Position numbers and translations under genes: made by a program. The notes beneath the pieces are model-generated. The model worked only from the letters and a program-made list of their open reading frames with translations. It was not told where the DNA came from and ran no database searches. A stretch of DNA of 59,618 nucleotides from Roseibacillus sp. (GTDB taxonomy: Bacteria > Verrucomicrobiota > Verrucomicrobiia > Verrucomicrobiales > Akkermansiaceae), in the NCBI GenBank assembly GCA_002686085.1, contig NZAC01000046.1, positions 1-59,618 on the forward strand, in the 5' to 3' direction. Of this stretch, positions 47,666 through 52,796 are shown in pieces; within the stretch, counting starts at the first letter, position 1, and each line of letters begins with the position of its first letter.

Positions 47666-48841
47666 GTGTTCGAGCTTCTTGCCACCGACCCTTCCTCCAA
47701 GGCCCGATCCGGCCGCCTCACCACTGCTCATGGCATTGTGGAAACTCCCATATTCATGCCTGTCGGGACTCAGGGATCGGTCAAGACCCTCCATCCTGAC
47801 GAGCTCAGGCTCCTCGGGTCGGAAATCATCCTCGGTAACACCTATCACCTCTGGCTCAGACCCGGACAGGAGACAATCCGCGAACTAGGAGGACTTCATC
47901 GATTCACAAGCTGGGATCGCCCCATTCTCACCGACTCGGGGGGCTTCCAAGTCTGGTCTCTTGCCAAGACACGCAAGATCACCGAAGAAGGCGTCCATTT
48001 CCAGAATCATCTCGATGGATCTCCTGCTCTCCTCACCCCGGAAAAAAGTATGGAGATTCAGGCTACTCTGGGTTCTGACATCGCCATGGTCTTCGATGAG
48101 TGCCCGCCCTACCCCTGCGAGCGTTCCTATGCTGAGAAATCCACGGCCCTCACAACCCGATGGGCTGAAAGATGCCGGATCTGGCATGCTGATTGTTCCT
48201 CTGACTTCTTTCCCGACGCCCACACAAACCCGAAAGAGGACGAGAATTCCCGTCCTTCCGCGAGGCGACAACTCTGCTTTGGAATTGTCCAGGGATCTTC
48301 CTACGAGGACTTACGAGCTGCCTCTGCGCGAGACCTAGCCATGCTGGATTTCGACGGCTATGCCGTAGGGGGAGTTTCTGTCGGCGAACCAGAGGAGGAA
48401 ATGTTTCGTGCGGTCGAGCACAGTGAGCCTTTCCTTCCACCAGAGAAACCCCGTTACGCAATGGGACTCGGCACTCCTCCTCAAATGCTTGAAATGATCG
48501 CACGGGGGGTGGACATGTTCGACTGTGTCCACCCAACCCGATCGGCCCGTCACGGGCTCGCATTTACAAACGATGGCCCGATCCACATAAAGAATGCACG
48601 CTTCGAGCGCGACAAGTCACCTCTGACCGAAGATTGCCACCCTCATCTTGCAGACTTTTCCCGTGCCTATCTGCGCCATCTCTTCAAGGCCGGAGAAATG
48701 CTGGCTTTACGATTGCTTTCTTTTCACAATCTTGATTTTTACCTCCGCCTCGTGCGTAATGCACGAAAGGCTATCAGCGAGGGTCAATTTGAGGAATTTC
48801 GTTCCTCTTTCTCCGAACGCTACAACCACAAGACAACATGA
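47666..48841 (+). CDS. tgt: Queuine tRNA-ribosyltransferase Tgt with atypical zinc site
   Basis: A 391-residue enzyme exchanging guanine-34 for preQ1 in GUN-anticodon tRNAs. The core is intact: TPIFMPVGTQGSVKTL, LGNTYHLWLRPG, TDSGGFQVWSL, FDECPPYP, GIVQGS, DGYAVGGVSVGEP, CVHPTRSARHG and LSFHNLDFYL. The usual CxCxxC zinc ligands before SRAYL are replaced: the sequence reads EDCHPHLADFSRAYL, so aligned positions are Asp, His and Leu, with one Cys and one His shifted. A short insert enriched in polar residues follows CRIWHADC. Start is GTG at 47666. It overlaps yajC by 4 bases. Confidence 0.93.
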   Translation: MFELLATDPSSKARSGRLTTAHGIVETPIFMPVGTQGSVKTLHPDELRLLGSEIILGNTYHLWLRPGQETIRELGGLHRFTSWDRPILTDSGGFQVWSLAKTRKITEEGVHFQNHLDGSPALLTPEKSMEIQATLGSDIAMVFDECPPYPCERSYAEKSTALTTRWAERCRIWHADCSSDFFPDAHTNPKEDENSRPSARRQLCFGIVQGSSYEDLRAASARDLAMLDFDGYAVGGVSVGEPEEEMFRAVEHSEPFLPPEKPRYAMGLGTPPQMLEMIARGVDMFDCVHPTRSARHGLAFTNDGPIHIKNARFERDKSPLTEDCHPHLADFSRAYLRHLFKAGEMLALRLLSFHNLDFYLRLVRNARKAISEGQFEEFRSSFSERYNHKTT

Positions 48842-49215
48842 ACTGTTATTCCATCATCGCCGCTGCTCCTCCCCAGACACCAGGCGGACAAAACCAGAAT
48901 CCTCTCGGAAGCATGTGGGTGATGCTCATCCTGATGTTTGTCATCATGTATTTTCTGATTATCAGGCCCCAGAGCAAACAGCGGAAGGAACAGGCTGCGA
49001 GAGTAGCCTCCCTTTCCAAGGGGGACAAAATCGTCTCGATCGGTGGCATTCATGGAACGGTCCATCACATTTCAAAAACCACAGTGACTGTGAAACTCTC
49101 CGAGAACGTCTTCGTCCCTTTCGAAAAGGATGCGATCCGATCGGTGACCAAGGTTGGCAATTCCTCGAAGCAGGATAGCTCTGAGGAACAGGCAGACGCA
49201 GGGGAAGAGTCCTAG
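48838..49215 (+). CDS. yajC: Preprotein translocase accessory subunit YajC
   Basis: A 125-residue protein with a single membrane helix (about 26-43, MWVMLILMFVIMYFLIIRPQ) directly followed by the YajC cytoplasmic domain KQRKEQAARVASLSKGDKIV, IGGIHGTV and FVPFEKDAI. YajC associates with SecDF. The ATG overlaps the tgt stop (ATGA). The acidic tail ends just before the SecD-like lipoprotein gene. Confidence 0.93.
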   Translation: MNCYSIIAAAPPQTPGGQNQNPLGSMWVMLILMFVIMYFLIIRPQSKQRKEQAARVASLSKGDKIVSIGGIHGTVHHISKTTVTVKLSENVFVPFEKDAIRSVTKVGNSSKQDSSEEQADAGEES

Positions 49216-49240: not shown

Positions 49241-50017
49241 ATGCCTCAAGCCTCCTCATTGGCCGCTTCTCTCGTTGCATTGGGCTGCGTCATATTGACG
49301 TGCTGCAAGCCAAAGGAGGAACTGAATTACGCGGCCATCCTCTCGCTCCCTCCCGACGAGCAAACAACCTCTCCATCGTCTCTTGTCGAAGAACTGACCG
49401 CACGCGCCGAACTGCTCGGCCTACCGGCAAGAGTCCGCACCACAGAAAGATCTGCCCGTCTTCTCGAAGTCCAGCTCTACGGAACGGATCGAGACGACGC
49501 CTTGTCCCGTCTCGACCGCCTGTGCGTGAGTGGAAAAATCAGCATCAGAGCCATCCACGATCGTAGTGCCTACATCACTGATATTGCCTCCAAGGATCCC
49601 TCTCAGCTCCCTTCGGACCATCAAATTCTCCTCTATCACGCCCGAGGCAAAGGAGGCTCAAACGGACAAAAATTAGCCGTCTCACGGGCTGAAATCCTCA
49701 ATAATTCGCATGTTGAGAGCGCCCTTGCAACCCCTGACGGTGACAATATGGTGCATATATCCCTCAATTCCAGTGGATTACGAAGGATAAGGTCCGCAAC
49801 CGAAAAAATGCAAAAAGGCCGCTCCCGACTTGCCATCATCTACGATGAACGGATTATCAGCGCCCCGGTGGTCGCTGAAGAATTGTGGACTCCAGTAACA
49901 CTCGAGGGGTTCAACTCCTTCGAGCACGCTGAAAGTCTGGCCACCTCACTCAACAAGCCCCTTTCCTCTAACCTCCTGATCGAATCACTCATACCACTTG
50001 CGCCTCAGGCCAAGTAA
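49241..50017 (+). CDS. SecD periplasmic-domain-like lipoprotein
   Basis: A 258-residue protein when started at the ATG at 49241; a longer frame from 49154 overlaps yajC. A hydrophobic signal (about 6-20) ends with I-L-T-C, a lipoprotein site. The rest matches the first periplasmic domain of SecD, seen by aligning it to the SecDF gene 34 bases downstream: ISIRAIHD against LELRAVHP, VHISLNSSGLRRIRSATEKM against VQVTLTNAGATLMRNLTAPM, and RLAIIYDERIISAPVV against RLAVVLDGEVDSAPVV. No transmembrane block follows, so it is not a transporter. Likely partner of SecDF or a regulator (inference). Confidence 0.78.
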   Translation: MPQASSLAASLVALGCVILTCCKPKEELNYAAILSLPPDEQTTSPSSLVEELTARAELLGLPARVRTTERSARLLEVQLYGTDRDDALSRLDRLCVSGKISIRAIHDRSAYITDIASKDPSQLPSDHQILLYHARGKGGSNGQKLAVSRAEILNNSHVESALATPDGDNMVHISLNSSGLRRIRSATEKMQKGRSRLAIIYDERIISAPVVAEELWTPVTLEGFNSFEHAESLATSLNKPLSSNLLIESLIPLAPQAK

Positions 50018-50051
50018 GCTTAGCGGCCTCTAACCCCACCGCCTTTAACCA

Positions 50052-52796
50052 ATGCAACCTACGATCGTTTTTCTCTCCGGCCTGTTCATTCTGGCTCTCC
50101 TTTTCTGGTATCTCGCTAGTGATGATATCAGCCGCAAGCGCAAGGTAGGAACCGTTCTTATCCTCGGCATTATCGTGATGTGCGGATGGTCCCTGTCTCC
50201 ACGGACGGAAACCTCGGAGTTTCTCGCAGGTAACATCACTGAAATGACTGATGGGACCGGCTACGAACTTTCTGTCACGGCAATTCTCGCCAAGGATGCA
50301 AAAGGTGAGGAGCTTGAGATGGAGCAGGACACTCTCGATAGAAGAGTTCGAAGTCTGGAGGCTAAAATAGGCCGTCAGGAGGATGGCGTCACCTACTCCT
50401 CTTCCCTGCCAAACCTTATCACTATCACGATGCCGGGATTCTCCAAGGAGGATGCCGAGGAGATCGCTTCCCTAGTCGAACAGTCTGATCCAGCCTCCTC
50501 TCTGAAACCCGGTATCGACCTTGCAGGTGGCGCATCCTTCACCCTTCAGGTCCAGCCCAAGGTCCTTGACGACTCCGAAGAAGCGACCGATGAGGATCCA
50601 GACGCCTACCGCGTTGGCGCGGATTCCATTCAGCAGGCGATCAAAACACTCCGGGGGCGACTGAATCCGGACGGCACCAAGGACATGCTGATCCAGCCTC
50701 AGGGACAGGACATGATCATCATCGAGATGCCCGGGGTCTCGGAGGAAGAGGCTGCATGGGTACGCGAAATCATCCAGAAACAGTCCGTCCTCGAACTGCG
50801 CGCGGTGCATCCCGACAACAATAACAAAGCTCCAAAGGTTGCCGCCAAGGAGATTGTCGTCCCTGGATACAAGCTTTTTACCTATACCGATACCGATGAC
50901 CGGGGAGAACCCCGCACCGAACAGCTCCTGCTCGAGAATCGGAATAAAATCGAGGGGAAACATGTCAAGAGAGCCTCTCCCGATCTTGCCACTTCTGGAG
51001 TCGTGCAGGTTACTCTTACCAATGCTGGTGCAACTCTGATGCGAAATCTCACCGCTCCCATGCGCAAGGGTGTGGACCGGCTTGCCGTGGTTCTTGATGG
51101 AGAAGTGGACAGCGCTCCCGTGGTGCAGGCTGTCCTCGACAAGAATTTCATCATTCAAGGTGTTGGGGACGCAGAGGAATGCCGCAATCTCTCCGCCACC
51201 TTGATGAATCCTCTCGAGAATCCGCTCAAGATTCTAAAGGAGTCCACCGTCACCGCGCGTCTCGGCGCCGCCACCGTCAACCAGGGCATCCTGGCCGGCA
51301 TTGCAGGCATCTCTCTCACGATTCTCTTCCTTGGAGTTTACTATCGTTTCGCGGGAATCATTGCCTTTATCGGACTCACCGTAAACGTCCTCATTCTCTT
51401 CGGTGCCATGGCGATGTTTGAATTCACCTTCACCCTGCCCGGCATCGCGGGCATCATCCTCACTATCGGTGTCGCGGTAGACGCGAACGTGCTCATCTAC
51501 GAGCGTCTCCGTGAAGAGCGCGCTGCAGGAAAATCCCTGTTTGCGGCAATCCAAGCTGCCTACGAGAAAGCATTCACTGCGATTTTTGACGCCAACATCA
51601 CCACCTTGATTACCGCCATCATTCTCTTCTGGCGGGCCTCTGGAACCGTCAAGGGATTCGCAATCACCCTTACGATTGGAATCCTTGCCTCTATGTTTGC
51701 GGCTCTTGTTGTCACTCGGGTCGCCTTCTGGTGGACCTCGCGAAACTCCGAGAGGAGCTCTCGTGATGACAGTCGCAAGTTAAAATTCATGAGCAGCCTG
51801 GTTCCGCGTCAGACCCTGCACTTCATGGGAATGCGCAAAGCAGCCTTTACGATCTCTCTTATCTTCCTTGCAGGCAGCCTGATCATGATTGGTGCGAAAC
51901 GTGGAAACGCTCTCGGCATTGATTTTGCAGGTGGCGCACTGATCCAGTTTCAGACCCAGCAGGAGACCGTACCGGAGGCCGAAGCAACTGCTGCACTTGC
52001 CGGCCTCGATCTCAAAAAAGATCCCATCATTCAGAACGAAACTCTCCCCGCTCCGGACAAATCGCAGATTCTCTCCATTCGCTGTGCCGACGAGGATGCC
52101 GAGATGATTGCCAATACCCTTCGTGAAAATGTTCCTCTGCTCGGGCTGAGGGCAGAAACAGCTGAGGAAGGCTCCACAGCTGTTGAGGCGGCATGGAAAT
52201 ACGATTCCTCCCGCGACACGGTGGAAGCCAGCCTCGGAGCAGACTTTCTCACGAATTCGCTGATTGCCCTAGGCCTTGGCCTCATCGCCATTCTCGCCTA
52301 CATCACGATCAGATTTGAATTCTCCTTCGCGATGGGTGCTTTCGCCGCGCTTTTCCATGATATCCTGATCTGTATCGGAATTGTGATCGCCCTGGGCCAG
52401 GAACTCACCCTGATTCACGTGGGAGCCTTCCTAACCATTGCTGGATACTCCATCAACGACACCATTGTCGTGTTCGACAGAATTCGGGAATCGCTAAGGA
52501 TGAAACGAGGTGAAGTAGAGGAGGTAATGAATATTGCTATCAACGCCACCCTTTCCCGCACAATCCTGACCTCGGCTACCACCTTCATCACCGTGCTTGT
52601 ACTCTTTATCTTCGGTGGTCCAGCCCTTAAGACCTTTTCACTCGCCATCATGGTGGGGGTAGTCGTTGGAACGTATTCCTCGATTTTCGTGGCATCTCCA
52701 ATCGTCCTGATTTGGAGCCGTAAGCGGGGTGTCAACCTTCGCCGGGAATTGCTGGATGCCAACCTCGAGGCTCAGGTGAACCCGGCACGGGGATAA
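50052..52796 (+). CDS. secDF: SecDF fusion, protein-export membrane protein
   Basis: A 914-residue fusion of SecD and SecF, using the proton gradient to help secretion through SecYEG. The SecD half has the first helix, KPGIDLAGGASFTLQ, the large periplasmic domain and a helix bundle with VGVAVDANVLIYERLREE-type motif (the sequence reads IGVAVDANVLIYERLREE). The SecF half starts near RGNALGIDFAGGALIQ and contains IAGYSINDTIVVFDRIRES. It begins 34 bases after the SecD-like lipoprotein. The first 110 residues include two membrane helices, one more than in standard SecD. Confidence 0.95.
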   Translation: MQPTIVFLSGLFILALLFWYLASDDISRKRKVGTVLILGIIVMCGWSLSPRTETSEFLAGNITEMTDGTGYELSVTAILAKDAKGEELEMEQDTLDRRVRSLEAKIGRQEDGVTYSSSLPNLITITMPGFSKEDAEEIASLVEQSDPASSLKPGIDLAGGASFTLQVQPKVLDDSEEATDEDPDAYRVGADSIQQAIKTLRGRLNPDGTKDMLIQPQGQDMIIIEMPGVSEEEAAWVREIIQKQSVLELRAVHPDNNNKAPKVAAKEIVVPGYKLFTYTDTDDRGEPRTEQLLLENRNKIEGKHVKRASPDLATSGVVQVTLTNAGATLMRNLTAPMRKGVDRLAVVLDGEVDSAPVVQAVLDKNFIIQGVGDAEECRNLSATLMNPLENPLKILKESTVTARLGAATVNQGILAGIAGISLTILFLGVYYRFAGIIAFIGLTVNVLILFGAMAMFEFTFTLPGIAGIILTIGVAVDANVLIYERLREERAAGKSLFAAIQAAYEKAFTAIFDANITTLITAIILFWRASGTVKGFAITLTIGILASMFAALVVTRVAFWWTSRNSERSSRDDSRKLKFMSSLVPRQTLHFMGMRKAAFTISLIFLAGSLIMIGAKRGNALGIDFAGGALIQFQTQQETVPEAEATAALAGLDLKKDPIIQNETLPAPDKSQILSIRCADEDAEMIANTLRENVPLLGLRAETAEEGSTAVEAAWKYDSSRDTVEASLGADFLTNSLIALGLGLIAILAYITIRFEFSFAMGAFAALFHDILICIGIVIALGQELTLIHVGAFLTIAGYSINDTIVVFDRIRESLRMKRGEVEEVMNIAINATLSRTILTSATTFITVLVLFIFGGPALKTFSLAIMVGVVVGTYSSIFVASPIVLIWSRKRGVNLRRELLDANLEAQVNPARG

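Follow-up and report, generated by a model that had tools for sequence, protein, structure and literature searches.

Gene X, located between yajC and secDF in Roseibacillus sp., is best explained as encoding an exported auxiliary SecD capture domain that works beside SecDF, in a gene that also hosts a cis-element probably serving secDF expression. We infer the function and give this reading a probability of about 0.5. P1, the first periplasmic domain of SecDF, has a substrate-capturing role, and X appears to be a detached, exported copy of it. The mature domain would begin about 7 residues past a probably lipidated Cys22, so that X would sit near the outer face of the membrane, where it may add substrate-capture or holding capacity beside SecDF-YajC. 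Less certainly, a 68-nt element within X would act in cis, most likely as an internal promoter/operator or as an mRNA element that sets secDF expression; X would therefore combine a protein role with a regulatory one. The genes and protein segments concerned are given below by position in the window (the whole stretch of DNA analysed, 59,618 nt).

47666..48841, + strand: tgt, first in the gene run tgt-yajC-X-secDF (ORF)
48838..49215, + strand: yajC (PF02699, 7e-28)
49241..50017, + strand: X, exported P1-only SecD paralogue, 258 aa (ORF, Pfam, BLASTP, structure, genus conservation)
49241..49306, + strand: signal sequence of X, Cys22 invariant; the lipobox reads LTCC in this strain and LTGC, LTSC or LTAC in distant members (alignment, read from sequence)
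49325..49555, + strand: P1 base half, aa 29-105, beta-alpha-beta-beta-alpha-beta (predicted secondary structure; alignment to 3aqo from aa 28)
49556..49975, + strand: P1 head region (Pfam PF22599 match, predicted secondary structure)
49976..49996, + strand: last base strand, aa 246-252 (predicted secondary structure, SecDF comparison)
50052..52796, + strand: secDF, fused, 914 aa, the neighbouring paralogue of X (TIGR01129, 402.8 bits)

Gene order on the + strand was tgt-yajC-X-secDF-(polysaccharide deacetylase-like gene)-ffh, where the first gene is presumed to be tgt from the established tgt-yajC-secDF cluster. X is a complete ORF with an ATG start, separated by 25 nt from yajC upstream and by 34 nt from secDF downstream. 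It was matched by Pfam PF22599 (SecDF_P1_head) at 54.8 bits (cut-off 27, E 1e-14) over aa 140-238 (49658-49954); X also carries the P1 base, which lies outside the coverage of that model. NCBIfam secD (TIGR01129) aligned to aa 51-238 at 41.5 bits, far below its cut-off of 244.4, so X falls outside the curated SecD family. BLASTP against the neighbouring SecDF gave 26% identity over 151 aa (E 2e-10). Profile searches returned no match in X to the SecD/SecF transmembrane families, including SecD_SecF_C. The closest MAGs were those of Roseibacillus and Akkermansiaceae. The RND-type helices with their proton path are missing, and the ORF stops at the last P1 strand, at the point where the next transmembrane helix of SecD would start. 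A sequence-only reading of the window had described a complete gene for a SecD-like protein that lacks transporter helices, and both points hold.

An AlphaFold2 model of X had a mean pLDDT of 81, with low confidence confined to the signal. Its input alignment contained 16 Roseibacillus sequences (10 X and 6 SecDF P1 segments), and these P1 rows make the model partly dependent on SecDF. Foldseek returned ten matches at E <=0.001, all of them SecDF or SecD, with 5yhf and 3aqo at the top (E 1e-12, probability 1.0). VIA-align of the model to 3aqo_C, a crystal structure of isolated SecDF P1, gave Z 18.8 over 202 residues at rmsd 3.2; Z was 12.6-15.2 against whole SecDF and at most 9 against unrelated ferredoxin-like folds. 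A PDB profile search, using the same mixed X and SecDF P1 rows, agreed with the SecDF P1 fold (E 9e-13), and the sequence matches, including that of Pfam to X alone, agree with the modelled fold. The predicted fold is thus that of SecD P1, and the likeness noted from sequence is real. Its extent had been understated: with the P1 base included, the entire mature protein is covered by the structural match (aa 28-253). Compared with the P1 of T. thermophilus (3aqo, 5yhf), X has the whole fold, base and head, and the shared invariant residues, but it lacks the transmembrane helices and the GG motif and has its own signal sequence in a separate gene.

The SecDF of core Roseibacillus has an additional periplasmic segment of about 90 aa ahead of the GG motif (window 50214-50501, SecDF aa ~55-150). 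This segment resembles an additional, second P1-base half in sequence and fold (local pLDDT ~80; whole model only 54) and is missing from genomes G010, G012 and G021.

Fifteen genomes of the genus were searched for X. It was intact and in the same place in 13, with the order always yajC-X-secDF at the loci read. One genome placed in the genus (G012) is without X, and its yajC leads directly into secDF; in another (G006) neither X nor SecDF was matched, and the locus was therefore probably not assembled. No X orthologue was found at E 1e-20 in the other 245 family genomes searched. X was retained down to 46% identity, and the X-bearing genomes of the genus contained no broken copies, stops or frameshifts. 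The TAG flagged as possible decay in relatives was the stop codon of X itself, which the alignment had overrun by two residues. Against the window, dN/dS was 0.15-0.31 for X and 0.08-0.14 for SecDF, and it was about 0.17 in each half of the mature X protein. X is under purifying selection in Roseibacillus. Neither of the two refutations proposed in the sequence-only reading was borne out: by prediction the fold is that of SecD P1, and close relatives keep X undamaged at this locus.

P1-only genes were also found elsewhere in Verrucomicrobiota. They lie just upstream of secDF in G022, G023, G049, G069, G076 and G081; in G032 the gene precedes tgt-yajC-secDF, and in G042 it is 7 kb away. In a P1-domain tree (IQ-TREE, 96 rows) each of these eight genes grouped with the SecDF P1 of its own genome or its nearest relatives, with supports from 86/80 to 100/100. 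AU tests, whose p values are descriptive because the groups were defined with the first tree already in view, rejected a single clade of all P1-only genes including X (p 9e-7), one clade of the eight from outside the genus (p 9e-5) and one clade of the three from g10 (p 2e-11). The two from g24 were allowed as one clade (p 0.36) and could share one origin. For Roseibacillus X, which had a long branch, grouping with its own SecDF was allowed (p 0.47). The groupings and tests therefore indicate that, besides that in Roseibacillus, seven or more duplications would be needed, or else repeated gene conversions; repeated conversion of an older gene by the neighbouring secDF would yield the same tree. 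We infer that X itself arose by partial duplication of secDF. That it is one of several separate duplications had been missed from the window alone.

In five of the eight genes outside the genus dN/dS between the P1-only and SecDF paralogues was 0.11-0.39, so these genes seem to be constrained too. As read by eye, their anchoring varies by lineage, with ordinary signal peptides or transmembrane anchors in place of the lipobox; a lipobox-bearing P1-head protein occurs immediately before yajC-secDF in G095, outside the order. Two genes near secDF were P1-unrelated by sequence: the ~320-aa gene in the slot of X in genus g3 is polysaccharide deacetylase-like, and a 334-aa gene in G066 reads as a glyceraldehyde-phosphate dehydrogenase. 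A trans-acting product that would work with SecDF is favoured by the recurrence, by the position next to secDF and by purifying selection that extends across the entire mature domain. The same selection and recurrence strengthen the earlier suggestion, made from location, of a working partner. Since the P1 copy is intact across the genus and independent copies recur in relatives, the detached grip probably has a real job in export.

Other small exported proteins of Verrucomicrobiota share the P1-head and a signal sequence with X, but are away from secDF, more diverged, and head-only or repeated. Contig C7 of the same genome (L123:2610-3110) encodes a second exported protein, of 166 aa, with a weak, diverged P1-head match, and ORFs of similar size with weak P1-head matches recur in relatives. 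Genus g3 has exported proteins (528-556 aa) with two to three P1-head-like repeats, not at secDF (L112:1385-3055, L113:1662-3248, L132:2224-3051; the frame in L132 is split into two ORFs). In several genera the P1-head is fused to an uncharacterised C-terminal region common to these proteins (L062:1999-3474, L114:2507-3700, L117:2232-3476, L119:2169-3059). No publication on detached SecD domains was found in the open-access literature searched.

An alignment of the 3' part of X from eight divergent species revealed a conserved block, listed here with a site inside it and a nearby intergenic sequence.

49802..49869, + strand: nucleotide-level conserved element in X, 68 nt (core 49829-49869, 41 nt invariant in all X-bearing genomes)
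49830..49857, + strand: sigma70-like site TTGCCA-16-GATTAT with dyad TCATC-TAC-GATGA in the spacer (consensus match only)
50022..50029, + strand: intergenic AGCGGCCT, which could pair over a long range in RNA with its reverse complement AGGCCGCT at 49816-49823

Mean pairwise identity among the eight species was 0.97 in the element, 0.68 before it and 0.77 after it. No other invariant run in the operon is as long as the 41-nt core; the second longest, 17 nt near the 3' end of tgt (48692-48708), possibly reflects a yajC promoter or mere codon conservation. Codons for invariant residues were identical in all species at 18 of 22 positions inside the element, against 10/57 in the rest of X (Fisher p 2e-7, descriptive because the block was noticed before testing), 46/354 in secDF, 30/248 in tgt and 6/44 in yajC. 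Runs of identical codons reached 13 in the element and at most 4 elsewhere, and in the paralogous secDF stretch, which encodes the same motif, 0 of 12 codons were identical (a scripted count used 13). This nucleotide-level conservation, which had escaped the sequence-only reading, adds a cis-regulatory role of the gene as a serious possibility.

The element is probably an internal promoter/operator, although matching a consensus is weak support; it may instead be an mRNA element or a DNA-binding site of another kind. The sigma70-like match is 9/12 (0.3 expected per 500 bp), and has A-tracts upstream; nothing else in the genome fits the degenerate pattern. With no other match in the genome at 3 mismatches, a regulon sharing the site was rejected. 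A mobile or multicopy element was ruled out by single copies in each genome (two in G014, whose assembly has two X contigs) and none in viral contigs. A programmed frameshift or overlapping ORF was rejected as well, as the other frames on both strands have stops in or soon after the element. Rfam contained no known RNA family matching the element at E 1. Folding of the region was no better than that of shuffles (z +0.46), and the RNAalifold covariation term was unfavourable (+1.97). The long-range helix was paired in 91% of cells, with no compensatory changes.

These observations bear on a reading in which X is mainly cis-acting: a secretion-monitoring or leader ORF like VemP, ApdA, ApdP and the RQH family, whose translation or export state would control secDF through the element and the intergenic block. 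X does resemble such ORFs in being exported and directly upstream of secDF, and uORFs of this kind upstream of secDF are patchy but widespread (PMC10987492, PMC7897499). The constraint on nucleotides in the 3' half of X and a possible pairing of AGGCCGCU with the intergenic AGCGGYCU would fit as well. X differs, however, in being a folded full domain, with the constraint of its N-terminal half and the whole P1 fold kept; no RAPP/RGPP-type or other known arrest motif is present, the final residues vary (APQAK, LAR or LAP before the stop), and the intergenic pairing is without compensatory change. To our knowledge, known arrest peptides are constrained at residues and not at synonymous sites, unlike X. 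A purely arrest-peptide reading fits less well, and a mainly cis-acting X is unlikely.

A role as decoy or negative regulator, in which X would compete with the P1 of SecDF for substrate or for YajC, YidC, SecYEG or similar partners, is rather improbable. In its favour, X is paralogous to a domain of its neighbour, has the same invariant residues, is separate from the motor and is probably co-transcribed. Against it, the sequence does not set a competitor apart from a helper, and recurrence beside secDF fits a helper or a dosage effect equally.

The signal sequence bears on where X would act. The lipoprotein signal claimed for X carries a caveat. Cys22 is invariant in 14/14 aligned Roseibacillus sequences, with good lipoboxes in the distant members (LTGC, LTSC, LTAC). 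The clade of the window has LTCC, with Cys at -1, and no Lys/Arg ahead of the hydrophobic stretch, which leaves lipidation in this strain likely rather than certain. The residue at +2 after Cys22 is an invariant Lys, which in E. coli permits sorting of lipoproteins to the outer membrane; if the same rules held here, lipidation would send X away from SecDF to the outer membrane. Instead of working at the inner membrane, P1 could then meet clients on their arrival from SecDF, perhaps at the BAM complex. A periplasmic SecDF-BAM contact has been described for E. coli (PMC7695460). The linker of only about 7 residues and the soluble or transmembrane-anchored versions in other genera argue against this location, which we regard as improbable.

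That X is a functionless by-product of frequent tandem partial duplication of secDF would account for repeated origins in the same slot, for a decayed relic in the 700-bp gap between yajC and secDF of G040 (L071:1318-2018, remnant DDQVLSAPV..., HMM E 0.005) and for the shortened P1-only copy in G073, but is largely refuted for Roseibacillus, and very improbable, given genus-wide retention under unrelaxed dN/dS and the constrained paralogue pairs of other genera.

An auxiliary capture domain beside SecDF thus remains the preferred reading of X. Against it stand the dependence of SecDF capture on a proton-driven channel, which X lacks, the fact that G012 does without X, the outer-membrane sorting that E. 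coli rules, if they hold, would predict for lipidated X, and, for the element, the incomplete promoter-like match and the shuffle-level RNA folding.

More broadly, and tentatively, detached SecD capture domains may have been made repeatedly from the resident secDF in Verrucomicrobiota and kept beside it as a separate component of export, with the Roseibacillus gene also carrying a deeply conserved cis-element that would control secDF. If so, an accessory subunit and the regulatory switch of its partner would be united in one gene. For the question of how SecDF P1 grips and releases exported proteins, and whether it needs the joined proton-driven channel, free P1 domains, seemingly made at least seven times besides Roseibacillus and kept beside secDF, provide a ready set of proteins for asking what a detached P1 can do, and the Roseibacillus element is a lead to secDF regulation in a phylum where the topic appears to be little studied.
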